Assembly: GCA_020344215.1 (NCBI GenBank)
Contig: CP070815.1
Span: 1,955,132-2,019,131 of the forward strand
DNA: 64,000 bases
Reading direction: 5' to 3'
Source: Gemmatimonadota bacterium
Lineage (GTDB): Bacteria; Gemmatimonadota; Gemmatimonadetes; Palauibacterales; KS3-K002
Shown here in pieces: positions 2,586 to 52,885 of this stretch. Every line of letters starts with the position of its first letter. Position 1 is the first letter of the stretch. The notes beneath the pieces are model-generated. The model had not been told where the DNA came from, made no database searches, and was given only the letters and a program-made list of their open reading frames with translations. The position numbers and the translations under genes were made by a program.

Positions 2586-3188
2586 CTAGGCGGCGTCGTC
2601 GGACGGGTCGTACACCCGTCGGAACTCGATCGGCCTGGGCATTTGCGGGTGCTCGATACGTACCCTGACGACCAGCTGCCCCCCGTCGTCGGAGAGCTCG
2701 TAGCTCTGAGTTGCCTCGGGGCCGGAGTCCGACTTCCGTGCCACCACGAGCTTGCCGCCTTGCCAGTCGGCCGTCAACTTGGTCGCCCCCAGGCCCTCGA
2801 CCAGATCCTCCCGCTCCTGGCCGTCCGGAAAGAGCACGAGCCTCATCCCATCTTCGGTCACGATCGTGACGGTTGAGTCATCCTGGAGAATCTTGAATGC
2901 GTGCGGTCCCTCCATCAACCTGCGCATCTGCTCGCGGTCACCACGCGGATCGCCGCCGGGCGGTCGACCTCTCATGCCGCCGCCCTGGCGACCCTGCATC
3001 CCGGAGCCACTTGCGGGCCGCATTTGCTCGCGCGGATTGTCGCTTTCCTCCTCGTTGAGTACCCAAGAACCGCTGAGATTCGGCCGGTCGACTTGGACGG
3101 CCGAAGCGGGTAGCACCTGCAGGGCGAGCAACATTAGCGCTAAGGGAAGGGCGGAGCCGATCCCTAGGACAGAAGATTCGCTGGTCAC
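2586..3188 (-). CDS. Secreted protein, paralogue of the lipoprotein at 531-1103
   Basis: About 200 residues with a Sec signal peptide (LPLALMLLALQVLPASA) but no lipobox cysteine. After SGSWVLNEEESDNP comes a Gly/Arg/Met-rich linker (about residues 55-90, repeated GRP and GGM), then the beta-rich domain shared with 531-1103: DSTVTIVTEDG, YELSDDGGQLVV and FRRVYDPSDD. GTG at 3188 is chosen because CGGGAGGTCAAG precedes it and the signal peptide then starts correctly; a longer frame reaches 3251. It probably belongs to the same regulatory unit as the ECF genes. Function unknown. Confidence 0.7.
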   Translation of the reverse strand: MTSESSVLGIGSALPLALMLLALQVLPASAVQVDRPNLSGSWVLNEEESDNPREQMRPASGSGMQGRQGGGMRGRPPGGDPRGDREQMRRLMEGPHAFKILQDDSTVTIVTEDGMRLVLFPDGQEREDLVEGLGATKLTADWQGGKLVVARKSDSGPEATQSYELSDDGGQLVVRVRIEHPQMPRPIEFRRVYDPSDDAA

Positions 3189-40212: not shown

Positions 40213-40324
40213 ACGGTCGCCGGGTCGCTCCTGGCCGCCGCCTGTCGGTCTAATCCGTTAACAGGCAAATGGTTACTCACTCGAGCGCCTCCTGCCCCCG
40301 CAATCTGCAAGACGTTAAACATTT

Positions 40325-40363
40325 GCGGACAGAATGAAAACTATGATCGGTCAGTTTGTCCGC
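40325..40363. promoter_or_regulatory. Inverted repeat upstream of the sigma-54 promoter
   Basis: GCGGACA (40325-40331) and TGTCCGC (40357-40363) form a 7-base inverted repeat about 65-105 bases before the predicted transcription start. Activators of sigma-54 promoters bind upstream at such distances, and PilR sites in Pseudomonas are described as TGTC-containing. Treat it as a candidate activator site. Confidence 0.4.
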
Positions 40364-40401: not shown

Positions 40402-40416
40402 TGGCACAAAGATGGC
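40402..40416 (+). promoter_or_regulatory. Sigma-54 (-24/-12) promoter for the prepilin cluster
   Basis: TGGCACAAAGATGGC has GG and GC spaced by the obligatory 10 bases and matches the TGGCAC half perfectly; the -12 half is TGGC instead of TTGC. Predicted start of RNA near 40428, 46 bases before the FimT-like ATG at 40474. The orientation matches the operon. Confidence 0.6.
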
Positions 40417-40473
40417 GTTCTGGCGGTAACCCAAGGCCCGCTTACGAAGGACAGACGAAACGCAGAGGGGACG

Positions 40474-40899
40474 ATGGTATCGCTTACATGTAAGCGCGGG
40501 TACACGATGGTCGACATGGCGGTCGTTCTGCTGTTGATCGGGGCCGCCATGGGAACCAGCGGGCCATTGAGCCGGCGGGTCATCGCTATGTACCAGCTGA
40601 ACACGGCGGCTCAGACACTGGCAGCGGATCTATCGCAGGCGAAGATACGGGCGATTCAGTCGAACGCGCTGGCGACGGTCGTGCGGGAGTCGAACCGGGA
40701 CTACCGCGTGGAGGGGTATCCGCGGCGGTTGCCCGGCATGGTGAGGTTCGACGTGGCCAGCACCGATTCGGTGGTATACAACGGCTTGGGCGCTATGGGC
40801 GATGGGGCCAGCCACCGATTCGTGCTGGTCAACCTATTCGGAGAGTCGCGAGAGATTGTCGTGTATGCGGCGGGCGGCCACGAGGTTCGTAAGCTGTGA
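40474..40899 (+). CDS. FimT/GspH-like minor prepilin
   Basis: A 141-residue type IV prepilin. The leader ends KRG, then YTMVDMAVVLLLIGAAMG, a class III signal cut after glycine by PilD. Position +5 is Asp instead of the usual Glu. The next helix (TLAADLSQAKIRAIQSNALATVV) and C-terminal beta domain are FimT/GspH-like. ATG at 40474 with GAGGGGACG upstream is preferred to the longer frame from 40384, which would run through the sigma-54 site. It overlaps the next gene by 4 bases (GTGA). Confidence 0.8.
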   Translation: MVSLTCKRGYTMVDMAVVLLLIGAAMGTSGPLSRRVIAMYQLNTAAQTLAADLSQAKIRAIQSNALATVVRESNRDYRVEGYPRRLPGMVRFDVASTDSVVYNGLGAMGDGASHRFVLVNLFGESREIVVYAAGGHEVRKL

Positions 40900-41303
40900 G
40901 AGAAGCCGGCGGATTCAGTCTGGTTGAGCTGATGGTCGCGCTAGTGATCTTCGCCTTTGGAGTGCTGGCCGGTGTGGCGCTTCTAGGTTCCGGCTACCGC
41001 TGGGAGGGGCAAGCCGAGCTTGAGACGCAGATGACGGTTGCTGCGGAGATGAAGGTTGAGGAGTTGAAGGCGGTAGCCGGAACCGAACTGGCGGACACGG
41101 TGCAGTTGATGCCGGGTGGGGACCTCGATTCGAACATGAGCGGATACTGGGACACGGCCGAGCTGGACGGGCGCGTGTTCACTCGACGCTGGCGGGTCCA
41201 GGCAGGGCCGGCGGGGACAAGGCAAGTGACGGTAAGGGTACTGCCTTTGGATCCGCCCGCGGCGGGTTACGCAGACCTCTGGACGCATGTGCTCCACGAC
41301 TAG
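40896..41303 (+). CDS. PilV-like minor prepilin
   Basis: A 135-residue prepilin with a short leader (MREAGG) and the classical FSLVELMVALVIFAFGVLAGVALL, including Glu at +5. The rest is a small globular domain with RRWRVQAGPAGTRQVTVRVLP, as in PilV/GspI types. GTG start coupled to the FimT stop; its end overlaps the next gene by 17 bases. Part of the pilus-priming minor pilins. Confidence 0.85.
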   Translation: MREAGGFSLVELMVALVIFAFGVLAGVALLGSGYRWEGQAELETQMTVAAEMKVEELKAVAGTELADTVQLMPGGDLDSNMSGYWDTAELDGRVFTRRWRVQAGPAGTRQVTVRVLPLDPPAAGYADLWTHVLHD

Positions 41304-41898
41304 GCAGGTTGCAGGCGTCTCCGGCTGCACGGCCGGCTTCAGCACGATCGGGATGATCGTCGCCTTCGTGCTGCTGGGGCTCTTGCTGTCCCCGATGCTG
41401 GGCACGATCCTCAGCGCCCAGCGCGGGTTCGTGGAGAGCCGGGACCGCGCCCGCGCTGCCGGCAGCGTGCGCTACGCGCATCTGGCGCTGACGCGCTTCA
41501 TGCGCCTCGCCGGTAGCAGCCCGGTCGGTCTGCCCCTACCAGGGATCGACCCGGACCCGGACGGCGATGGGGTCTTCAACGACATCCGCCTGCGCTCCGA
41601 CTACAATCCGCCGGATGGCGACACCAACGACGCGGGCGAGGACCTGACGTTCTTCCTTCGAGCCGACACGATGTACGTGAGGTACGGGACCGGTGGGACA
41701 GAGGAGCCGTACCTGATAGGAGTGGACTCGCTGGCGTTCACGTACTTCGACCGCGCGGGCGAAGTCATCGCCGACCCGGATCGCATTGGCCCGCGCGCGA
41801 TATCCGCCGACGTGACGATCCGTGCCCGCGGCGATCGGCACGCCGATCCGGCGGAGCGCACGCTCTCCGGTCGAGTCCGGCTGCGAAACGGGAAGTGA
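41287..41898 (+). CDS. PilW-like minor prepilin lacking Glu5
   Basis: A 203-residue prepilin. The segment AGFSTIGMIVAFVLLGLLLSPMLG sits after an 18-residue leader; by position and operon order it is PilW/GspJ-like. Residue +5 is glycine, not glutamate, as in GspK-type tip subunits. An acidic DPDPDGDGVFND loop near residue 90 looks calcium-binding. Overlaps both neighbours (17 and 4 bases). Confidence 0.78.
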   Translation: MCSTTRQVAGVSGCTAGFSTIGMIVAFVLLGLLLSPMLGTILSAQRGFVESRDRARAAGSVRYAHLALTRFMRLAGSSPVGLPLPGIDPDPDGDGVFNDIRLRSDYNPPDGDTNDAGEDLTFFLRADTMYVRYGTGGTEEPYLIGVDSLAFTYFDRAGEVIADPDRIGPRAISADVTIRARGDRHADPAERTLSGRVRLRNGK

Positions 41899-43211
41899 TG
41901 AGCATGTGGTTCAAGCTGCGTTCTAACGAGTCGGGGATGGCGCTGTTGGCGGTGCTGCTGGCGATGGCACTGCTGACGGCTATTGGCGCGGCCCTCACCG
42001 CGGTCGGGATCGTCGAGTTCCGCGCGGCGAAGAACCACCGCTCGGCTTCACGAGCGTTGCTGCTGGCCGATGCCGGCGCGACTCACGCGCTGGCGCTGAT
42101 GCGCGGCCCCTTGTCGGGCTACACCTACAGCGAGGTGCTGGTGGGATCGGACGGGATCCCCGATACCGAGGACGATGGGGTGTTCACAGGTTTCGAGCTC
42201 GCCGGCGACGAAGCTTTACCTGACACGGGAATCATGCTGGGCGAGGGTCGCTACTACGTGCGGATTGTCAACGACGACGGAGACCCGAGCGGCGACCCGT
42301 ACAGCGACACCAACAACCGGTTCGTAGCGCTCTGCCGTGGCGAGTTGCCCGACGGCGGGGCGGCGGAAGTAAGGGTCATGCTGGCGGCACCCAGCTTCCC
42401 GGCGATCGCGACCAACGGCACGCTCTACCTGCCGGGTAACCCCGGCATCGTAGGTGGATGCGCTGGCGTTCACGCCAATCGGATCATGACGGTGAGCGGG
42501 CATCCGACGGTGGCCGGCGACGTCACGTACTACGAGGACGCCGTCGTCAGCGGCACGATCTACGGTACCTCCGGGGAGGAGAAAGAGCCGAAGCCGGGGC
42601 CGTGGGTCGACATCCCGGAGTACGAGCCGTTCGACTACTGCGACGACGCCGAGTACTTCCTCAAGAACAACAAGCTGATCACGGTGGGGCCGCCGGAGAG
42701 CGAGATCACCCTCGGCAAGGCCCTCGGCTGGCAGTTCAACGCCTCGACCTGGACCTACGAACTCAACGGCAAGGAGGCGGTGGGTGGCAAGTACTGCGTC
42801 CGCGGCAACGCCAGGGTCGTCGGCAATCTCGGTGAGCCGGGAAACCCGCTCGAGATCACGATCATCGCCACAGGCTCGATTCAGATCGGCGGCGTGCCGA
42901 TCATCGAGCCGGCCAACAGCGACGACATACTCCTGCTGGCCGGCGGCGACGTGCAGATCGGCGGCACCACGACGGGATTGAGGTCACCCTACTACGCCGG
43001 GCTGATCTACGCCGGCAGCCAGTGCCAGGTAGGTGGCACGCCGTACGTGGACGGCCACATCATGTGCTACGACGACCCGGACCCGGTCGGTGCCGTCGAC
43101 CTGTTCGATGAGAACAAGATCAACGGAACTCCCACGGTCAGCTATGACTGCTCAGGGGAACAGCGACGCACGCTAATGGCGTCTTGGTGGGAATCGCGGA
43201 CGACTTCATAG
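41895..43211 (+). CDS. PilX-like prepilin with solenoid-like C-terminal domain, copy 1
   Basis: A 438-residue prepilin-like protein. After SNESG comes MALLAVLLAMALLTAIGAALTAVG, then FRAAKNHRSASRALLLADAGATHALAL, the PilX/GspK-type helix. The C-terminal ~270 residues carry irregular short repeats of the form VxGxPxVxG (LPGNPGIVGG, VSGHPTVAGDV, NARVVGN, IQIGGVPII, VQIGGTTTG, VGGTPYVDG), suggesting a beta-solenoid. The end is YDCSGEQRRTLMASWWE. No Glu5. It starts by ATGA overlap. Much longer than usual PilX, and duplicated next door. Confidence 0.82.
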   Translation: MMSMWFKLRSNESGMALLAVLLAMALLTAIGAALTAVGIVEFRAAKNHRSASRALLLADAGATHALALMRGPLSGYTYSEVLVGSDGIPDTEDDGVFTGFELAGDEALPDTGIMLGEGRYYVRIVNDDGDPSGDPYSDTNNRFVALCRGELPDGGAAEVRVMLAAPSFPAIATNGTLYLPGNPGIVGGCAGVHANRIMTVSGHPTVAGDVTYYEDAVVSGTIYGTSGEEKEPKPGPWVDIPEYEPFDYCDDAEYFLKNNKLITVGPPESEITLGKALGWQFNASTWTYELNGKEAVGGKYCVRGNARVVGNLGEPGNPLEITIIATGSIQIGGVPIIEPANSDDILLLAGGDVQIGGTTTGLRSPYYAGLIYAGSQCQVGGTPYVDGHIMCYDDPDPVGAVDLFDENKINGTPTVSYDCSGEQRRTLMASWWESRTTS

Positions 43212-43295
43212 TCTCTACATATAAATGTCCAGCGACCTCGGGCGCAGGTTCGCGACCGGGGAGGCCGGAGGCACGCGAGCGAGGGGTGAGGAGCG

Positions 43296-44603
43296 ATGAT
43301 GGGGCGCGTACGCAGCAGCGAGTCGGGCATAGCATTGATCGCGGTGCTGCTGGGTATGGCGTTGCTGACCGTGATCGGCGCTGCGCTCACCGCCATCGGG
43401 ATCGTCGAGTTCCGGACCGCCATCAACCATCGCTCGGCGACCCGCGCTTTGCTCCTCGCAGATGCCGGCGCCAACCATGCACTGGCGCTGATGCGCGGCC
43501 CCCTCAGCACGCTCACATACACCGACGTTATTCGTGGAGCCGACGGTTCGGTCGCTACGCTGGATGATGGCGTGCTGTCCGGCTTCGGCCTCGACGCCTT
43601 CGACGAGGTGCCGGATACCGGAGTGGTCCTCGGCAAAGGCCGCTACTTCGTCAGGCTGGAGAACGATCCCGCCGACCCCAGCGGCGACCCGTACACCGAC
43701 TCCAACCATCGGCTGGTCGCGACCTGCCGGGGCGAGACTCGCGACGGCGGTGCGGCGGAGGTCGGGATCGTGCTCGCCGCTCCCAGCTTCCCGGCCATCG
43801 TCAGCAACGGTGATCTCACGCTGCCCGGTAACCCCGAGGTCCTGGGACCCTGTGCCGGTGTTCATGCGAACGGAACCTTGAGTGTGAGTGGGCACCCAAC
43901 CGTAGACGGCCCGGCGACGTACTCGGATGCCGTAGTGCTAAACGGCACGATCTACAACACGAACGGTAGTATCGTAGTCCCGGCCTATGCAGGGCAGGTA
44001 GAGGTCCCCTACCACGATCCGGACGAATACCGCGACCAGGCCGACTACGAGCTCCGCGACGGCTGGGTGATCAACGTGGGGCAGCCGCGTGACAGCACGT
44101 TTGCCACAGGGTCCGGTGTGCACGGCTGGAATTGGAACGCGGGGCAGGGAACGTGGAGCCTGGCCGGCAACAAGGCGGCAGGCGGTACGTACTTCGTGAA
44201 CGGCAACGTCGAGGTCACGGGAAACGCCGGCAGCGATGGCGATCCGCTCAAGCTCACCATAATCGCCACCGGCTCGGTCAAGGTCGCCGGCAACCCGAAG
44301 ATCGAGGCGGACCATCCGGATGGCATCCTGATCCTCGCCGGCGGCGACGTCGACATCGCCGGCAACGCTTCCGGTATCACGTTGTCGTACGCCGGACTGG
44401 TCTACGCCGGTGGGCAATGCCAGGTGAACGGGACGCCCAGTGTCGGCGGCCACATACTGTGCTACGACGGTCCCGACCCGCTCGGCGCCGCCGATCTGGT
44501 GAGTGACAACAAGGTCAACGGAACGCCCACCGTCACCTACGACTGCACGGGTGAGCGGCGGCGCACCATGGTGGCGTCGTGGTGGGAGAACAGGGCCCGA
44601 TAG
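43296..44603 (+). CDS. PilX-like prepilin with solenoid-like C-terminal domain, copy 2
   Basis: A 435-residue paralogue of the preceding gene with the same architecture: IALIAVLLGMALLTVIGAALT, FRTAINHRSATRALLLADAGANHALALMRGPLS, DPSGDPYTDSNHRLVA, then solenoid-like repeats (LPGNPEVLGP, VSGHPTVDG, VEVTGNAG, VKVAGNPKIE, VDIAGNAS, VNGTPSVGG) and YDCTGERRRTMVASWWE. GGGGTGAGGAGCG before the ATG is a good ribosome site. It is 84 bases after copy 1 and ends at a strong terminator. Confidence 0.82.
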   Translation: MMGRVRSSESGIALIAVLLGMALLTVIGAALTAIGIVEFRTAINHRSATRALLLADAGANHALALMRGPLSTLTYTDVIRGADGSVATLDDGVLSGFGLDAFDEVPDTGVVLGKGRYFVRLENDPADPSGDPYTDSNHRLVATCRGETRDGGAAEVGIVLAAPSFPAIVSNGDLTLPGNPEVLGPCAGVHANGTLSVSGHPTVDGPATYSDAVVLNGTIYNTNGSIVVPAYAGQVEVPYHDPDEYRDQADYELRDGWVINVGQPRDSTFATGSGVHGWNWNAGQGTWSLAGNKAAGGTYFVNGNVEVTGNAGSDGDPLKLTIIATGSVKVAGNPKIEADHPDGILILAGGDVDIAGNASGITLSYAGLVYAGGQCQVNGTPSVGGHILCYDGPDPLGAADLVSDNKVNGTPTVTYDCTGERRRTMVASWWENRAR

Positions 44604-44646
44604 ACCCCGCCAAGTGTTCGATCAAGCACCACTAACCTCAAACGAG

Positions 44647-44685
44647 TGGGCGGACACCGCCGATCGGTGTCCGCCCATTCAAACG
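44647..44685 (+). terminator. Terminator of the prepilin operon
   Basis: Perfect 13-base stem TGGGCGGACACCG (44647-44659) and CGGTGTCCGCCCA (44665-44677) with a 5-base loop, then TTCAAACG. It lies 44 bases after the last PilX-like gene and 25 bases before the convergent GGDEF gene stop, so it may serve both. Confidence 0.7.
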
Positions 44686-44701
44686 TAAGCTCGCCGCCGG
44701 G

Positions 44702-46159
44702 CTAGCTGCCGATAAAGTCGGGCCAGCGGAGTTTCCGGCCTTCGGCGAATCTGAGGCCGTAGTGCTGTGCCCGGTACATGGCAGCGTCAGCCTCTGACAC
44801 CAGCTGTTCTACCACCTGGGCGAAATCGGGTATACCGAGGTCCATCGGCGATGCGTCGCCCGGCTCGAGGGCCGCCAAGCCCACGGTCGTCGTCAGCTGT
44901 GGCATACCGGGGGGCCAGGAGCTCTCCCACTGGCTGGCGAGTGCCGAGTGGAGACGCTCCGCCACTATGACGCCGCCCTCCTGATTGGCATCTATGAGGA
45001 TCAGAAGAAACTCGTCACCGCCGAAACGGCCAACCACGTCGGAATCGCGCACGTTCATCTTCAACAGGTTGCCCAGGTGTCGGAGCGCTCGGTCCCCGAC
45101 GACGTGGCCGTACTTATCGTTCAGGTCCTTGAACCGATCGATGTCCAGCATGAGCACGGTCACGGGGAACGCTTTGCGCCAGGCGAGCTTGACCGTCTCA
45201 CGCAGCCGTTCCAAGATGAACGACTTCTGAAAGACACGCGTCGTTGAGTCAACGGTGGCCAGCTCGTAGAGCGCGGCGTTGCGAATCGCCGCGGCGGCCT
45301 GGCTGGCGAATAGCTGCAGAAGATCGATATCCCGCTCAGCGTGGCCAGGCCGGCTGATGTACGCCAGCCCCAGCACGTGTCTTTCTAGGACGAGCGGAAG
45401 AACACCATGCCGGTCGTCTATGATGTTGCAGCGCTCCTCCACCGCCCGGCGGAAGAGATGGTTGGGCACCGATCGCAGCTTCTCGACGGTCGATCCTTTC
45501 GGGTAGACGTCGCTACTGGCAGCGCTCACCACGAAATCGTCTATCGACTGGGGAGAATAGATGAACCCTTCTATGGGAGGTTTTCCCACGAGATCGGTCG
45601 AACGAGCTGCCACGAAAGCGCTATCGCCGCCCATCAGCCCGCTCACCACGTCGAGGATCGTCTCCATCAGCTCGTCGACATTCTGGATCTCGTGCAACTC
45701 CGGGGCTGTCTCCAGCAACCGCCTCAGCCCCTGCCGGGTACGGCGGATCGCATCTAGCTGCCGCGCCGTTGCCAGCGCCGCGTTCACCCACAGACGTAGA
45801 CCGTCCTCGCCGTGCCGCTTATCGTGGAACCCGAAGACGTTGTGCAGCTGGTTGAGCTTCCGGAAAGGGGCGCCCGGCGCGCCCGGCCCCATGAGAATTA
45901 TCGGCGCCGCAGGCGCGCACTCGCGCAGGTCGGCCAACGGATCTGCTCCGTCCATCTCCAGCAAGGCCACTTCCACCAAAAGGACGTCCGGCAGCTGGTC
46001 GGCGAGGAAGCTCGCCGCGGCGATGAGATCCTCCGCCCCCCAGACATTGTGGCCGTCCTCGGCAATCAGCTTGCAGCTTCGGCTCAGGAATCCCGGGTCG
46101 CTATCGACCAGCAGTACGCTGAGTCCTTGCTTCGCCTGACTGCGCCGTAGCAGCGTCAT
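44702..46159 (-). CDS. Receiver-GAF-GGDEF protein, probable diguanylate cyclase
   Basis: A 485-residue signalling protein that should make c-di-GMP. An N-terminal receiver-like domain (13-130; VLLVDSDPGF) has Glu where the phospho-Asp should be (DVLLVEVALLEMDG), so it is probably not phosphorylated normally. A GAF-like domain occupies about 150-305 (ILDVVSGLMGGDSAFVAA, ASQAAAAIRNAALYE). The GGDEF domain has LMLDIDRFKDLNDKYGHVVGD, VVGRFGGDEFLL intact and an RxxD inhibitory site (RDSD) five residues before it. It sits beside the pilus genes, which c-di-GMP often controls. Confidence 0.9.
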   Translation of the reverse strand: MTLLRRSQAKQGLSVLLVDSDPGFLSRSCKLIAEDGHNVWGAEDLIAAASFLADQLPDVLLVEVALLEMDGADPLADLRECAPAAPIILMGPGAPGAPFRKLNQLHNVFGFHDKRHGEDGLRLWVNAALATARQLDAIRRTRQGLRRLLETAPELHEIQNVDELMETILDVVSGLMGGDSAFVAARSTDLVGKPPIEGFIYSPQSIDDFVVSAASSDVYPKGSTVEKLRSVPNHLFRRAVEERCNIIDDRHGVLPLVLERHVLGLAYISRPGHAERDIDLLQLFASQAAAAIRNAALYELATVDSTTRVFQKSFILERLRETVKLAWRKAFPVTVLMLDIDRFKDLNDKYGHVVGDRALRHLGNLLKMNVRDSDVVGRFGGDEFLLILIDANQEGGVIVAERLHSALASQWESSWPPGMPQLTTTVGLAALEPGDASPMDLGIPDFAQVVEQLVSEADAAMYRAQHYGLRFAEGRKLRWPDFIGS

Positions 46160-46340
46160 TGGCTCCGTTCACACCCCGGCCTGTCGGCGAGGAAGTATTT
46201 CGAGTTTCGGGCTATCTTGAAGCGGGGGAGTTGAAGTGGCGGTGGGAGGGAGTGTAAGACTATACACCGTGTGAGGCCGCAAGGTTCACCCGTGAGGGAA
46301 CCCTGCCGGCCGCTCGGCGACTGCGGTCTGGAGTAGGGCC

Positions 46341-47339
46341 ATGCAGAAGATGCGCGCGGTAGTCGTAAGAGAGGCCGGGGGACCGGAAGTTCTTGATGTG
46401 CAAAGGGTTAGGGCCATCCGCCGGCCCGGGCGCGGCGAGATCCGGGTCAGGGTCAGGGCCGCGGGGGTGAACCGGGCCGACCTGCTCCAGCGGCGCGGCC
46501 TCTACCCGCCGCCGCCCGGCTGGCCGGCCGAGATCCCGGGGCTCGAATATGCCGGCGAGGTGGAGGCGGTAGGCGAGGCCGTCGAATTGTGGCAGGCGGG
46601 CGACCGCGTGATGGGGCTGGTGGGAGGGGGTGGCTACGCCGAGTATGTGGTCGTCCAGGAGCGTGAGGCGCTGGCGATCCCGCCGCTGCTCTCGTTCGAA
46701 GAAGCTGCGGCCGTCCCTGAGGTGTTCATCACGGCCCATGACGCCCTCTTCACCCAGATACATTTGGAGCTGGGCGAGCGACTTCTGATCCACGCCGTGG
46801 GCAGCGGCGTAGGTACCGCCGCCTTGCAGCTGGCGAAGGCGGCGGGTGCCACCGTGATCGGGACGTCGCGCTCGGAGTGGAAGCTGGAGCGCGCTACCGA
46901 TTTCGGCCTGGACGTTCTGATCAACACTTCCGAGCACGACTTCCCTGAGATGGTGCTGCAGGCGACGAGTGGCGAGGGGGTGCACGCCGTTCTCGACCTG
47001 GTGGGTGCTCCTTACCTGGCGGGCAATCTAAAGTGCCTGTCGGAGAAGGGACGCGTGATCGTCGTGGGGCTGACGGCCGGCCGCACGGCGGAGATCGACC
47101 TCGGTGCCTTACTGCGGAAACGTCTTCGCCTCATCGGAACGTCTCTCCGCTTTCGTCCGCTGGAGGAGAAGATCGAGGCAGTCCGGGCCTTCGAGCGCGA
47201 TGTGGGGTCTCTCCTGGCGACCGGCCAAGTTCGCCCGGTGATCGATCGCGTCTTTTCATTCGAGGGAGTCGTCGAAGCGCACCGGCACATGGAGTCCAAC
47301 CTGAGCTTCGGAAAGATCATCCTCCGCTGGAACGGCTAG
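46341..47339 (+). CDS. NAD(P)H:quinone oxidoreductase, zinc-less MDR family
   Basis: A 332-residue medium-chain reductase of the QOR/TP53I3 (PIG3) type. VRVRAAGVNRADLLQRRGLYPPPPG is the N-terminal PIG3-like block; the NADPH-binding motif is HAVGSGVGTAALQLAKAAGATVIGTSRS. The zinc-ligand cysteines of alcohol dehydrogenases are absent. It ends HRHMESNLSFGKIILRW. Stand-alone gene; GGAGTAGGG precedes the ATG. Likely handles quinones or reactive carbonyls. Confidence 0.92.
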   Translation: MQKMRAVVVREAGGPEVLDVQRVRAIRRPGRGEIRVRVRAAGVNRADLLQRRGLYPPPPGWPAEIPGLEYAGEVEAVGEAVELWQAGDRVMGLVGGGGYAEYVVVQEREALAIPPLLSFEEAAAVPEVFITAHDALFTQIHLELGERLLIHAVGSGVGTAALQLAKAAGATVIGTSRSEWKLERATDFGLDVLINTSEHDFPEMVLQATSGEGVHAVLDLVGAPYLAGNLKCLSEKGRVIVVGLTAGRTAEIDLGALLRKRLRLIGTSLRFRPLEEKIEAVRAFERDVGSLLATGQVRPVIDRVFSFEGVVEAHRHMESNLSFGKIILRWNG

Positions 47340-47608
47340 AACTCCGCCGCGAGTCACACTCACCTATCGATGCTTGACCACGTGCCAGCCGGCCGCCGCT
47401 GTGCGCCCGAGGCACGGGTGTGTATCCAACCGACACGGTCCCCACGACGGCCCCGGCGCGCTTGGCGCAAGATCACTGGGTTGTCACCCGGCACCGCCCG
47501 GCACTCCCCTTGCCAACAACTGATAGTGTGGTGTCGTCATTCGAGAGACTTGACGCGGGTATGACCCGCTCGGCGCCACCTTGGGGCAAACCTGGGCAGG
47601 AGGTGACA

Positions 47609-48415
47609 ATGGGCCGGGATCCCCGCTACTCAGCCGAACTTGGGGCGCTGCTGCCGGCGCTTCTCATAGCCCTCACCGCGGCGGGCGCTGCCGCCCAGGA
47701 GGTCCGGGAAACTGGGCACGAGGATCAGTCCGGTCTGGGCCTCGCCTTGTTGTTCGCGATGCCGCGAGGCGAGTTCGCGAACTACATCGACCCGAGCCTG
47801 GGGCTCGGCGCGTACCTGCACGTCGATTTCAGCGAGCATACCCCTCTCGGCCTGCGGTTCGACGGCTCGATGGTCTATTACGGCAGTCAGACTCGTCATC
47901 GGCCACTCTACGCGACCGGGCCGCGAGGCTTCACTGCGATGAGCCAGGTCGATGTCACGACCAGGAACAGGATCGGCTCGTTCTTCGTCGGGCCGCAGCT
48001 CACTTTCCAGTCGGGTGCTGTTCGGCCGTTTGTTCACGCCGGTGTGGGCTTCTCGTACTTCTGGACCGGTACGGACTGGGAGCACCCCTACTACGATGAT
48101 GACTGCGACTGCGACGAGTGGGATGAGGAGGATTGCGGTGACGACCTCTACGATACGCTAGACCTCGATCTGTTCTTCGAGGGTGGCACGGAGTACGATG
48201 ACTGGACCGCTGCGTGGACCCTTGGGGGCGGTGTCTCAATCGCTCTGGGAAGGAGCGCCTCGCTCTACCTCGCTCTCCAATACATGGACAACGGCCGCGT
48301 CTCCTACTTGCGGGAGGGGAGCATCATAGACGGCCCGGACGGCTACTACTCATTCACCCCAATCGAGAGCGAAGCGGACTTGTTCGTGCTGCAATTCGGA
48401 TTCTCGCTCCACTGA
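47609..48415 (+). CDS. Outer-membrane beta-barrel protein with acidic Cys loop
   Basis: A 268-residue exported protein. Signal: ELGALLPALLIALTAAGAAAQ. The mature chain is an OmpW/OprB-like short-strand barrel (LGLGAYLHVDFSEHTPLGLRFDGSMVYYG, FFVGPQLTFQSGAVRPFVHAGVGFSYFW, AWTLGGGVSIALGRSASLYLALQYM) ending in LFVLQFGFSLH. One loop, near residue 165-185, is very acidic with cysteines (DDDCDCDEWDEEDCGDD), a possible metal-binding site. ATG at 47609 has AGGAGG; the frame from 47420 is leader. No neighbour hints at a role. Confidence 0.78.
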   Translation: MGRDPRYSAELGALLPALLIALTAAGAAAQEVRETGHEDQSGLGLALLFAMPRGEFANYIDPSLGLGAYLHVDFSEHTPLGLRFDGSMVYYGSQTRHRPLYATGPRGFTAMSQVDVTTRNRIGSFFVGPQLTFQSGAVRPFVHAGVGFSYFWTGTDWEHPYYDDDCDCDEWDEEDCGDDLYDTLDLDLFFEGGTEYDDWTAAWTLGGGVSIALGRSASLYLALQYMDNGRVSYLREGSIIDGPDGYYSFTPIESEADLFVLQFGFSLH

Positions 48416-48547
48416 GCGAGGTCGGCGAACCAGAACTGACGAGCTTGGGGCCGGTGTTCCGGGCTGGCAACGGGAAGGCTGCAACGTGCTGGCCGCGGAG
48501 AGATAACCGGCACGTCCGTGTCCTTTAGCTGAGTTCGATCACTTCAT

Positions 48548-48994
48548 CTACTTGTCCTTCTTCTTCTTCCCTTTCGGTTCGCAGGCGATGACACCCTCTT
48601 CCTCGGCGGGGCTAAAGGGCTCAACTTCGCCGATGTATACGGCGCAGAAGAATCTTTCAGGACTAAGGTTCTCATGCTCGGCCCGGGCCGACCACCCTCT
48701 ACGGTTGGCACGGATCTTCACAACTACGTTCTCGCTGGGGGTGAAGTCGAGCTTTTCGGTCGACTTCGTGTAAGTGGCCCCTCCGTCTGCGTTGGGGTCA
48801 TCCGCGAAGTACCCGCCGGTCGATGCGTTGTATTCCTCCTGCGCGTGGATCAGATTTCGCAGATCCGATTCCATCGCCGCCATGTAGGCTGCGTTCTTGG
48901 CCCGGTAAAGCGTCGCCGAGCCCATGGCCGTGAGGATGGCGATCACGACGATGGCGGTAAGCAGCTCGAGGAGAGTGAATCCCCGCGCTTTCAT
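48548..48994 (-). CDS. Type IV pilin / GspG-like prepilin
   Basis: A 148-residue prepilin with leader MKARG and FTLLELLTAIVVIAILTAMGSATLYRAKNAAYMAAMESDLRNL, including Glu5 and the long N-terminal helix. The globular part has QEEYNASTGGYFADD and a single cysteine pair near the end (RFFCAVY, VIACEP); the C-terminus is lysine-rich (PKGKKKKDK). CCAGGAGG precedes the ATG. Similar in plan to the pilin at 52013-52456 (QEAYW...YADD), so the two are paralogues. An AT-rich patch at 49041-49080 is its likely promoter area, not sigma-54 type. Confidence 0.88.
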   Translation of the reverse strand: MKARGFTLLELLTAIVVIAILTAMGSATLYRAKNAAYMAAMESDLRNLIHAQEEYNASTGGYFADDPNADGGATYTKSTEKLDFTPSENVVVKIRANRRGWSARAEHENLSPERFFCAVYIGEVEPFSPAEEEGVIACEPKGKKKKDK

Positions 48995-49193
48995 GGAATC
49001 GTTGGCCTCCTGGCGGGAAAGTTGCTGGCGGGGAGTGGCGCGCAGCTAGCTATATAATCGTAAGTCGCGAATGATTTTACAAGCCGGAGCGGCCGCGCAC
49101 GCCAGCGGAGCCTCGTTCGATGCACTCCGCTGCGCGCGATGCTTCTCGTATCTCCTCGTGCCCGAGTCAGTTGGCCGGCTCGCCTCCCAGCGC

Positions 49194-49925
49194 TCAGCGG
49201 ATTGCCGTGCACAGGGTGTCGCGGTGCCACTGGATCAGCGTCCGCATGTACGACCCGATGTAGTCGGCGCCCTCGAACCCGGCGGCCCGTGCCGCCGCTT
49301 CCTTCCGCTCGTCCGACACGTCGGCACTGCCGGCGAAGTGCTTGATGTCCCTGTAGAAGCCGAGCGTGTACAGGTCCCACGCCGCGCCGGCCACGCGGGT
49401 GAAGATCAGGTTCAAAGGACGATCGATCCCGGCCAGGTAGGCGTTCTCCATGTGCCGCTCTTCGAGGAGCGCCTCGCGCTTGCCCGGCAGGGCGATGAAC
49501 GCCTCGATGTGGTAGTAGGAGCCGGCGGAAAACGCGCTATCCACCACCTGCAGCGCCGGGCCCACGACGTACACTTCCTCGCGCCAGGCGATCCGTGAGT
49601 CTAGCTCTCTCTCAAAGTCCGCCTCTGACATTCCCGACTCTTGGGCCGCCCGCTCGCGCCGGGTCATCCGCTCCGCCGAGTAGTAGTCGGCGAAGCTGCC
49701 CATCGGGAAGAGCAGCAGCAGGTCCCATTGGTCGCCTTGGGTATGGCGCATCCAGAAGGGCCTGGCGCCGCCCGCTTCGTAGACAGGCATCCTCTGCTTA
49801 TAGAGGTCGATCAGCTCGAGTAGCTCACCGGGCGCTGCCCGGACGAGCAGGGTCTTGAACAGGTAACCATCACCGGGGTCCGGCGATCCCGTGACGAGTA
49901 GTGCGGCGAGTAGCAGGGCGACCAT
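49194..49925 (-). CDS. Hypothetical exported protein, NIPSNAP-like texture
   Basis: A 243-residue protein with a short N-terminal hydrophobic segment (VALLLAALLVTGSP) that could be a signal. The rest alternates strands and helices, with two similar halves (LFKTLLVRAAPGELLELIDLYKQRMP / YHIEAFIALPGKREALLEERHMEN), suggesting tandem ferredoxin-like alpha-beta barrels as in NIPSNAP or dimeric barrel proteins. No catalytic motif seen. It lies between a pilin and yqeC; no operon link is evident. Confidence 0.65.
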   Translation of the reverse strand: MVALLLAALLVTGSPDPGDGYLFKTLLVRAAPGELLELIDLYKQRMPVYEAGGARPFWMRHTQGDQWDLLLLFPMGSFADYYSAERMTRRERAAQESGMSEADFERELDSRIAWREEVYVVGPALQVVDSAFSAGSYYHIEAFIALPGKREALLEERHMENAYLAGIDRPLNLIFTRVAGAAWDLYTLGFYRDIKHFAGSADVSDERKEAAARAAGFEGADYIGSYMRTLIQWHRDTLCTAIR

Positions 49926-49986
49926 TGTCCGCTCGCAGGTTATATCTCGAATTCCGTGCGTGCCCGGCCGAGGCCCGGCAGCGGTT

Positions 49987-50754
49987 TCAGCGGGAGACTA
50001 CGTCGACCAATCGGGCCGGTTGAAGGTGCGATGTCAAGACGACGCGCTCGAAGCGACCCGTAAGCTCGAGGGCAACCTGGGCGGCCTCCCTGGCTTGAGC
50101 TTCCAGGTCCGAGTTATCGACCATGTTGATGATGGGGACGACCGCGGCGTCGCCCGTACTCTTCAGCGCGCCATCTTCGTGGGTCAGGAGGCGCGCGACG
50201 TGCTCGGTAGTGAGTATGTCGCCGTACTCCGCCCCGCTGAGGGCCTCAACGCGTGACAGGCGGTGGGCGACGGACTCGGTCAGAGGTGCCCCGAAGGCTT
50301 TGGCCGATACAACTGGGAGGACCGTAGTCGATCCCTCGGGAATCACCGGCTCTTGCGCCTCGGGCGCCTTGATCCAACGCATTCGGGCTCCGTCGCACTT
50401 GACAAGCGTCAGGTCGAAGTCAGCGGCCTGGCGGATCTCGGCCACGAGATCGGGAGCGACGCCTCCGAAGCGGCCCGGCTTATCCGAGGGGTGGGCGAAG
50501 GCGACGAGCCGGTGGGCCGTGGCCGCTTCCACGACGTGCGACCGGAGCTCGGTCGCTTCGGCGATCACAACGTGGGCACCGAGAGAACACGGGAAGTGCG
50601 CATTGGGTACCGTGCAGGTGAGTCCGACCCGGCCGGGGTGTAACACCGCCAGATGGTAGAGCGTCGTCTTCTTGCCGCCGGCGCCGACGGCACAGACGGT
50701 GCCCGAGCGGGCGCAGAGCAGGTCGAGCAGCTCGCTCAACCTCTCAACCCCCAA
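49987..50754 (-). CDS. yqeC: YqeC-like selenium-dependent hydroxylase accessory protein
   Basis: A 255-residue P-loop protein. Walker A-like motif: VCAVGAGGKKTTLYHLA. Further YqeC-type marks are FDLTLVKCDGARMRWIKAPEAQEPVIP, VLPVVSAKAFG and VPIINMVDNSD. In the family these are linked to maturation of selenium-dependent molybdenum hydroxylases. Its start overlaps the end of the propeller gene by 11 bases. No molybdenum hydroxylase or selenium gene is in the window, so the client enzyme is elsewhere. Confidence 0.82.
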   Translation of the reverse strand: MGVERLSELLDLLCARSGTVCAVGAGGKKTTLYHLAVLHPGRVGLTCTVPNAHFPCSLGAHVVIAEATELRSHVVEAATAHRLVAFAHPSDKPGRFGGVAPDLVAEIRQAADFDLTLVKCDGARMRWIKAPEAQEPVIPEGSTTVLPVVSAKAFGAPLTESVAHRLSRVEALSGAEYGDILTTEHVARLLTHEDGALKSTGDAAVVPIINMVDNSDLEAQAREAAQVALELTGRFERVVLTSHLQPARLVDVVSR

Positions 50755-51853
50755 TCACGGCAGCTTCCACGCAGAGGATGCGCGGCAGGAACCCGGCGAT
50801 GATCTTCCAGGACTCGCCGCCGTCGCGGCTCGCGAAAAGGTGGCCGCTCGAGGTCCCGAAGTAGACGCCGCAGGGGTCGAGCCCATCGGTGTCGATCGCC
50901 TCGCGTAGGACAGTCACGTAAGCGTTCTCGCGCGGGAGGCCGCGAGTTAGCGGCTGCCAATCGCCCCCGGCGTTGCGGCTCCGGTAGACGGTGATGGCGC
51001 CGCCCACAGTAGTGCGGATGTGGCTGCTCTCCTCCGGTACAATGAACACGGTATCGGCGTCGTTGGGATCTGTGGCCACCGCATAGCCGAAGTCGCTGGG
51101 CAGCCCATCGGTAATCTCGATCCAGTTCTCCCCCCGATCGTCGGTCCGGTACGTGCCGGTGTGGCTTTGCTGGTAGAGCCGGTCCGGGCGCGCCGGGTGC
51201 AGCACTATACGGTGCACGCAGTGCCCCGATTCCGGACTCGGGTCGGGGAGGTAATCGGCCCGTATGCCACGGTTCACAGGTTTCCAGCTCGCGCAGCCGT
51301 CGTCGCTGCGATAGACGCCGCCCGCCGACACGGCGGCGTAAACACGCCGTGCGTCGCGGGGGTCGATGTAGATCGAGTGAAGAGCCAGTCCGCCCTTGGC
51401 CGGTTGCCAGGTATGCCGCGTCGGATGCCGGTTCAGCCCGGCGACCGACTGCCAGCTCGCCCCGCGGTTGCGGCTCACGAAGAGACCGGCCGGCTCGATT
51501 CCAGCGTAGAGCATCTCGGGCGCGCTTGCGTGGCCCGGCGCCAGATACCAGATCGCCTTCAGGCTTGGGGCATCCTCCGCCGGTGGGTAGTGCGGCGCGC
51601 CGGGCAACAGTTCCCAAGTGCGGCCGCCGTCGGTGCTCCGGTGCACGTGCACGCCCCAGACCGCGTGGTTGGCGGCCGCGTATGCCGTTGTAACGTCTCG
51701 CCGGTCGAAGCACGCGTGGTACAACTCGTAACCGGCCAAGTAGGGACGATCCAGCCGCCACTCACGGCGCCCCAGGCCGGACGTCGCGCGGAAGAGACCC
51801 TTACGGGTCCCCACCAACAGGACAACGCGTGACTTCTCCGAGTCGTGGATCAA
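50744..51853 (-). CDS. BNR/VPS10-type beta-propeller protein
   Basis: A 369-residue propeller with six Asp-box-like blades: HRSTDGGRTW, FVSRNRGASW, YRSDDGCASW, YRTDDRGENW, YRSRNAGGDW and FASRDGGESW. This fits the sialidase/sortilin-like (VPS10, exo-alpha-sialidase) group. There is no signal peptide and no sialidase arginine triad was identified, so catalytic activity is doubtful. ATG at 51853; co-transcribed with yqeC by overlap. Confidence 0.85.
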   Translation of the reverse strand: MIHDSEKSRVVLLVGTRKGLFRATSGLGRREWRLDRPYLAGYELYHACFDRRDVTTAYAAANHAVWGVHVHRSTDGGRTWELLPGAPHYPPAEDAPSLKAIWYLAPGHASAPEMLYAGIEPAGLFVSRNRGASWQSVAGLNRHPTRHTWQPAKGGLALHSIYIDPRDARRVYAAVSAGGVYRSDDGCASWKPVNRGIRADYLPDPSPESGHCVHRIVLHPARPDRLYQQSHTGTYRTDDRGENWIEITDGLPSDFGYAVATDPNDADTVFIVPEESSHIRTTVGGAITVYRSRNAGGDWQPLTRGLPRENAYVTVLREAIDTDGLDPCGVYFGTSSGHLFASRDGGESWKIIAGFLPRILCVEAAVIGG

Positions 51854-52012
51854 TTGCCTCCCAGCCCGTTTCCTCAGGGATAAGCGGTCCTCTGAATCTC
51901 AGGGATTTCGCGGGGGGCACAAGATCCGCTGGGGGCGGGCGCGTCTGCTAGGCTATGCTGGCGTGTGACGATGAGGCTGGATACGGGAGCGTAATCGGCG
52001 GCCCGGCGCAGA

Positions 52013-52456
52013 CTAATTGCTGCACTCGACCCTACCCTCCTGGATCCCCGGGATACCGGGAGGCGTCACCGGGCCGGTGTAAAAGCCGCACTCGATGGTG
52101 TCGTCGCTGTCGTGTGTCGCCTTGGCGCTCCAGCCGTTGCCTGCCGTCTCCAATATCGTGATGACCACGTTCGGGGTCTGGTTGAAATCATCGAGCAGGG
52201 CGACGTCGTCAGCGTAACTCTTCGTGTTGTCCCAATAGGCTTCCTGGGCGGTGATCAGCGAGCGCAAGTCGGTAAGGGCCTGTGATCGATACGCCTTCTG
52301 ACGCGCACCGGTGAAGCGCGGCAAGGCTATGAGCGTGATGAGGCCGATGAGGGTGACGACGACGAGCAGCTCGATCAGCGTGAACCCCTTGAGACTGGCA
52401 GCCCCAGTTCTCACGGTCGCCGCGAAAAGAGCATCTATCCGACGAGACAACTGCAT
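52013..52456 (-). CDS. Major-type IV pilin (PilA-like)
   Basis: A 147-residue prepilin. The class III signal ends ASLKG, followed by FTLIELLVVVTLIGLITLIALPRFTGARQKAYRSQALTDLRSL with Glu5. The globular part has QEAYWDNTKSYADDVALL and two cysteines near the end (ECGFYTG, RVECSN). The leader from ATG 52456 is 24 residues, longer than usual; an in-frame GTG at 52414 would shorten it but lacks a ribosome site. A strong sigma-54 promoter lies 65-78 bases upstream, typical of pilA genes driven by PilR. Confidence 0.88.
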   Translation of the reverse strand: MQLSRRIDALFAATVRTGAASLKGFTLIELLVVVTLIGLITLIALPRFTGARQKAYRSQALTDLRSLITAQEAYWDNTKSYADDVALLDDFNQTPNVVITILETAGNGWSAKATHDSDDTIECGFYTGPVTPPGIPGIQEGRVECSN

Positions 52457-52519
52457 TCTACCGGCCCCCTATCGACCGCCGGAGCTGGCAAATGGTCCGA
52501 CGGTGCGGTCTCCAGAATG

Positions 52520-52535
52520 GGCAAGGTCTGTGCCT
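52520..52535 (-). promoter_or_regulatory. Sigma-54 (-24/-12) promoter of the pilin gene
   Basis: Read on the minus strand: AGGCACAGACCTTGCC. GG (52534-52533) and GC (52522-52521) are 10 bases apart, and GGCACA-N4-TTGC matches the RpoN consensus except at the first and last bases. Predicted RNA start near 52509, about 53 bases before the pilin ATG. Confidence 0.72.
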
Positions 52536-52885
52536 GGCAGGCCTCGGAAGCTAAGATGTTACAATACAAAAGCTTATGCGTGTCGTTCCCCGGCCGCCCT
52601 CGGTCCCGGTTGCGGTCGGCCAGCCGCATATTGCAAGGCGTGGGGCGGAGTGCGGGAGTCATTCTGACCGGGCCCTAGGTGGGCCCGGAACCCAGTCCTG
52701 GGGTCGAGATCCGGGCGCGGCGATCGACGCTCTCTGCGGCTGTAAACGGTTGTTGCGTATTGTATTAGGGACGGGACTGCCGGCCGGCCTGAAGAGCGGA
52801 CTGAGCCGGGAGGGGAGTCGTGTGGGGATGGCTCCTAGCGGTTGCGCCTGCGGGGGAGGAGGTGCAGTGAGGCAGCCCTCCAGCG

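Follow-up and report, generated by a model that had tools for sequence, protein, structure and literature searches.

A palindromic site recurring before pilin genes and an undescribed RNA gene points to one two-component switch for much of the pilus programme in a Gemmatimonadota bacterium

The window, that is, the whole stretch of 64,000 nucleotides analyzed here, comprises bases 1955132-2019131 of the single-contig 4.74-Mb genome of an uncultured Gemmatimonadota bacterium. It carries two pilus gene sets 12 kb apart and a third pilin-type gene, as follows (positions are those of the window unless genome coordinates are stated).

40474..40899, + strand: FimT/GspH-like minor pilin, with weak GspH matches and a prepilin-like N-terminus; orthologues in five family genomes
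40896..41303, + strand: PilV-like minor pilin, with TIGR02523 and N_methyl matches
41287..41898, + strand: PilW-like minor pilin by position and N-terminus, with a weak XpsI match only; conserved synteny
41895..43211, + strand: PilX/GspK-like minor pilin, first of a tandem pair, with a weak GspK match; conserved synteny
43296..44603, + strand: PilX-like minor pilin, second of the tandem pair, with a PilX_N match just under the cut-off
48548..48994, - strand: third pilin-type gene, without a sigma-54 site upstream
52013..52456, - strand: pilin-type gene, a PilA/GspG-like paralogue, with partial N_methyl, PilA_Myxo and GspG matches

Convergent with the minor-pilin operon lies a gene (44702-46159) whose product reads, from its sequence, as a receiver-like protein with a GGDEF-type C-terminal part. 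It is syntenic in the relatives checked, and a c-di-GMP link to the pili is possible.

Upstream of the first gene of the minor-pilin operon (fimT) and of the gene at 52013..52456 (the 52456 pilin) are two GG-N10-GC elements, both at the positions and in the orientations claimed for them in the original prediction.

40402..40417, + strand: sigma-54 -24/-12 element TGGCACAAAGATGGCG, before the minor-pilin operon, recognized by conservation
52520..52535, - strand: sigma-54 -24/-12 element AGGCACAGACCTTGCC, before the 52456 pilin, recognized by conservation

The GC of the element stands 57 bp (fimT) and 64 bp (52456 pilin) from the ATG, and transcription is predicted to start 12 bp past the GC, near 40428 (+) and 52509 (-). 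The 46-53 bases to the start codons that had been claimed hold as the lengths of the 5' leaders counted from these predicted starts, not as the distance of the GC itself.

Counted in single sequences, the elements do not stand out. Consensus matches with at most two mismatches number 28 in the window versus 20.8 +- 5.0 expected, which is not above chance. The genome-wide RpoN motif scan proposed with the original prediction likewise shows no excess, with 95 matches at up to one mismatch versus 212 for the reversed control, and such counting was dropped as uninformative, the control pattern being the commoner. We used instead the orthologous promoters of a family set of eight genomes, the source genome (G000) and seven same-family comparison genomes (G001-G007), in which the gene order around both promoters is largely kept. 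The fimT site has 13 of 16 positions invariant in six orthologues, where the mean of all windows of that size is 3.7, and it ranks first of 205 as the most conserved 16-bp stretch in the 220-bp upstream region; the orthologous element reads TGGCAyrAAGATGGC. At the 52456 pilin, whose orthologues read GGCAC-N5-TTGC, 10 of 16 positions are invariant in five orthologues (mean 2.8), and the site ranks fourth of 225, outranked only by windows of a conserved upstream box. The rpoN gene was looked for in the same genome and found (Sigma54_DBD, E 9.5e-65). Because the sites are conserved in orthologous promoters, we judge both to be genuine sigma-54 promoters despite the chance-level single-sequence counts. 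Those counts, which do not surpass expectation, would suit the alternative that both elements are chance matches and the genes are under ordinary promoters. That reading is very improbable, being already strongly disfavoured by the conservation of the sites in six and five genomes and by the conserved boxes linked to them upstream. The third pilin gene had been said to lack such a site, and this is borne out: no GG-N10-GC site scoring at least 7/11 lies upstream of it or of the G001 gene, its only close syntenic orthologue.

Both promoters are preceded by a palindrome, CGGTCAnnnTGACCG, which we call box B, and the 52456 pilin has in addition a different site, box A. The boxes are arranged as follows.

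40327..40341, + strand: second, degenerate copy of box B (GGACAGAATGAAAAC), 22 bp before the first and weaker than it; most orthologues have an GTCAGAATG-like sequence here
40348..40362, + strand: box B CGGTCAGTTTGTCCG, 54 bp upstream of the fimT -24 element and a putative activator site; conserved in six orthologues
52624..52636, - strand: box A TTGCAATATGCGG, before the 52456 pilin; conserved in five orthologues
52645..52655, - strand: conserved CCGCACTCCGC, the most conserved block of the 52456-pilin upstream region, possibly a degenerate first box A
52656..52670, - strand: box B CGGTCAGAATGACTC, 135 bp before the 52456-pilin -24 element

The box B of the 52456 pilin is present in the G001, G002 and G004 orthologues, as a perfect palindrome in G004, and is degenerate in G005. 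A box-A-like site before fimT (40298-40310) was set aside, as it is not conserved even in G001.

Control of pilA by PilR and RpoN is classical. A search for pilR in the source genome found it in a canonical pilA-pilS-pilR locus at 460 kb, where pilA lies immediately upstream of pilS and pilR; the 52456 pilin is not this canonical, pilSR-linked PilA. The pilA promoter has a conserved sigma-54 element, TGGyCCC-N4-TTGC, and box A stands twice before the gene, about 20 bp apart, with no box B. The genome contains five exact copies of box A (TTGCANNATGCNG), two of them at pilA and at the 52456 pilin. The 52456 pilin has box A in common with pilA, and fimT has box B with no conserved box A. PilR probably uses box A, a palindrome other than box B, and the 52456 promoter, since it carries both boxes, may integrate both systems. 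With rpoN and pilA-pilS-pilR present, the sites conserved and one palindrome shared by both promoters, the proposal that the minor-pilin cluster and the 52456 pilin are activated in common is well founded.

Every CGGTCANNNTGACC site in the family set was listed, and 87 unique sites were examined for a linked sigma-54-like site, defined as one scoring at least 9/11 and located 40-180 bp downstream of box B. Such a site accompanies 25 of the 87, versus 3.2 from random positions (binomial 6e-16, an upper estimate of strength because sites that are orthologous between genomes do not count as independent). At the stricter score of 10/11 there are 12 linked sites versus 0.6 expected. In an outgroup set of five genomes from other families of the same class, 1 of 61 box-B sites has a linked sigma-54 site (Fisher 5e-6 versus the family). 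Some of the 87 sites, namely those of a pilin at 2365 kb and its relatives and of the G004 pilin, had contributed to the definition of the motif, in which the hits at 419, 1297, 2732, 2813 and 2815 kb in the source genome took no part. Box-B counts alone are uninformative, because they surpass their control in several outgroups too, and only the sigma-54 linkage discriminates. When the composite box-B/sigma-54 pattern was sought in 394 genomes of the class, the eight family genomes gave 20 hits and the remaining 386 gave seven; with the pattern reversed as a control, the whole set of 394 yielded three. The seven outgroup hits were discounted, six being inside ORFs, and one of the 20 family hits, at window position 3182 and mostly inside a predicted ORF, was rejected as chance.

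Most genes next to box-B/sigma-54 pairs encode pilins or minor pilins of GspH/FimT- or PilX-like type, and one target cluster has a T2SSF (PilC/GspF-type) gene at its end. The spacing from box B to the -24 element is mostly 99-112 bp, with a further 76-bp class, and the spacer contains a recurring A/T-rich tract (about 60% A+T versus 20-35% on either side), as expected if the DNA must bend there. These pairings support a co-regulation wider than the two gene sets to which it had been limited, one that would take in several further pilin loci and an RNA gene. Tandem paralogous PilX-like genes are found at genome 2813774-2818343, the first two each with its own box-B/sigma-54 promoter, and G001 has five such promoters in a row at tandem PilX-like genes. 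At genome 419515-420087, the gene of a conserved 136-aa protein with no Pfam family is preceded by a sigma-54 site and, 76 bp before that site, by a box B; G001 and G002 show this arrangement too, and G004 has the box/promoter pair.

About 16 NtrC-type activators are encoded in the source genome. The best candidate for the box-B protein, and the likeliest judging from its leader, is a two-component pair that is not linked to pilus genes.

genome 1297131-1298711: PAS-HisKA histidine kinase, partner of the response regulator
genome 1298730-1300103: NtrC-family response regulator (REC/AAA+/Fis-HTH), with PF00072, PF00158 and PF02954 all above cut-off

The leader of this operon contains two box Bs, 23 bp apart, in G000, G001, G002, G003 and G005, and one in G006; the G007 leader was left out of the comparison, as the start of the match was off and the leader could not be placed. 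Because two box Bs stand in the regulator's own leader, we infer that the system would be autoregulated. Seven of the eight family genomes each have one clear orthologue of the response regulator, at 65-91% identity to the query, and none of the matches listed in 60 relatives outside these orthologues exceeds 49%; in that comparison the regulator is confined to the family. No orthologue was found in the 86% complete G004 assembly, which nevertheless has box-B/sigma-54 pilin promoters.

Divergent from the two-component operon, at genome about 1296604-1296930 on the minus strand, is a strongly conserved stretch of about 300 nt that appears to be an RNA gene. In its promoter, a box B lies 102 bp upstream of a conserved sigma-54 site that reads GGCACnCnGCTTGCC in most genomes; the stretch itself has no conserved reading frame and ends in a GC hairpin and T-run. 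G000, G001, G002, G003 and G007 have it, G005 has two copies, and there are partial matches in G006 and elsewhere in G005; among the 60 genomes searched, none from outside the family has it. Against Rfam there was no match, the best scores being far below the gathering scores. The consensus fold has 79 pairs, of which nine show compensatory change versus 3.0 in shuffles, and none of 500 shuffles reaches nine; this covariation support is moderate, because many pairs never vary. Since a terminator ends the RNA and the genes after it differ between genomes, a free-standing RNA is more likely than a leader of the next gene, a reading that we judge unlikely. The 3' hairpin (GACTTGGCGGGAGTCGGCGCC...) also occurs alone, at G005:C1:1041173-1041225 (98% identity over 53 bp) and G006:C116:36803-36871, as if it were a separable module.

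We consider it probable that these promoters, the two in the window included, form one pilin regulon, commanded by the pair at 1297131-1300103 through box B and sigma-54. The proposed mechanism is that an NtrC-family response regulator, most likely that of this pair, binds box B 50-135 bp upstream of the -24 element and, through looping of the DNA over the A/T-rich spacer, contacts sigma-54 RNA polymerase, triggering transcription of the minor-pilin operons and several pilin genes. The pair would be autoregulated through the box Bs of its own leader and would divergently drive the structured RNA, whose expression and role we propose from its promoter and conservation. PilR would act separately through box A, with the 52456 promoter taking input from both. 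Counting against this explanation are the G004 box-B promoters without an orthologue of the proposed regulator, the confounding of the co-occurrence of regulator and box B by phylogeny, and the box-B spacings in the window (54 and 135 bp), which are off the main class.

The original prediction suggested that one RpoN/PilR-type activator serves major and minor pilins. A shared activator stands; the 52456 gene is not the major pilin, and PilR is probably not the common activator, because pilA carries box A and it is the leader of another NtrC-type regulator that carries paired box Bs. PilR might still be the box-B activator, with the other two-component system only one of its targets, a possibility that we regard as unlikely. 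PilR is encoded in all the family genomes, G004 included, and box B is similar in kind to the GTC/GAC-rich half-sites reported for Pseudomonas PilR (GTCT elements are mentioned in PMC6058289). However, the pilA promoter next to pilSR contains two copies of box A and lacks box B, no box-B/sigma-54 linkage is seen in outgroups whose pilins have PilR-like neighbours, and the paired box Bs suggest autoregulation of the other system. Somewhat less likely again is that box B is bound by another of the NtrC-type activators, one also present in G004; the box-B promoters retained there would then be accounted for, but that assembly is incomplete and, among the activator leaders reached by the box-B search, only that of the 1297131-1300103 pair has paired conserved boxes.

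The regulon commanded by the 1297131-1300103 pair invites a broader proposal, namely that a family-specific two-component system controls a sigma-54 pilin regulon through CGGTCAnnnTGACCG independently of PilR, with the RNA as a post-transcriptional arm, a CbrAB-CrcZ-like circuit for pili. We offer this tentatively, finding it almost as easy to accept as to doubt. If true, the structured RNA would add a post-transcriptional layer to pilus control. The open literature searched contained no paper that connects sigma-54 with type IV pili in Gemmatimonadetes. From the present data come predictions of a specific activator, of the site and targets of that activator and of a new RNA; the data also suggest that coordination of minor and extra pilins may lie with an activator distinct from PilR, the two inputs being integrated at one pilin promoter.

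Several known systems resemble the one proposed. In the PilSR/RpoN-pilA systems of Pseudomonas aeruginosa and Geobacter sulfurreducens, as here, a pilin has a sigma-54 promoter and an NtrC-type activator, and in Geobacter the predicted PilR sites extend beyond pilA to further pilus genes (PMC6058289, PMC2725144). Unlike those systems, the shared box here differs from that of the pilSR-linked pilA, and the likeliest activator is a separate system, not PilR. The fimU minor-pilin operon of P. aeruginosa is activated by AlgR and Vfr (PMC8787478) and is likewise under a regulator other than PilR; RpoN is unmentioned in that report, whereas the sigma-54 element of the promoters here is conserved and a palindromic box lies upstream of it. 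In the CbrAB-CrcZ system of Pseudomonas, the targets of an NtrC-type regulator include both protein genes and sigma-54-dependent small RNAs (PMC6296734), a likeness that we infer here from sequence. The CbrB sites are non-palindromic (PMC6296734), whereas box B is a palindrome, and the RNA here is without an Rfam match and divergent from its presumed regulator. It resembles CrcZ and the Qrr RNAs in arrangement, lying beside an NtrC-type system with a sigma-54 promoter, a terminator and no coding capacity, and this is a likeness of arrangement, not of membership. What appears distinct here is one palindromic box uniting minor-pilin operons, paralogous pilins, the leader of a regulator and a new RNA.
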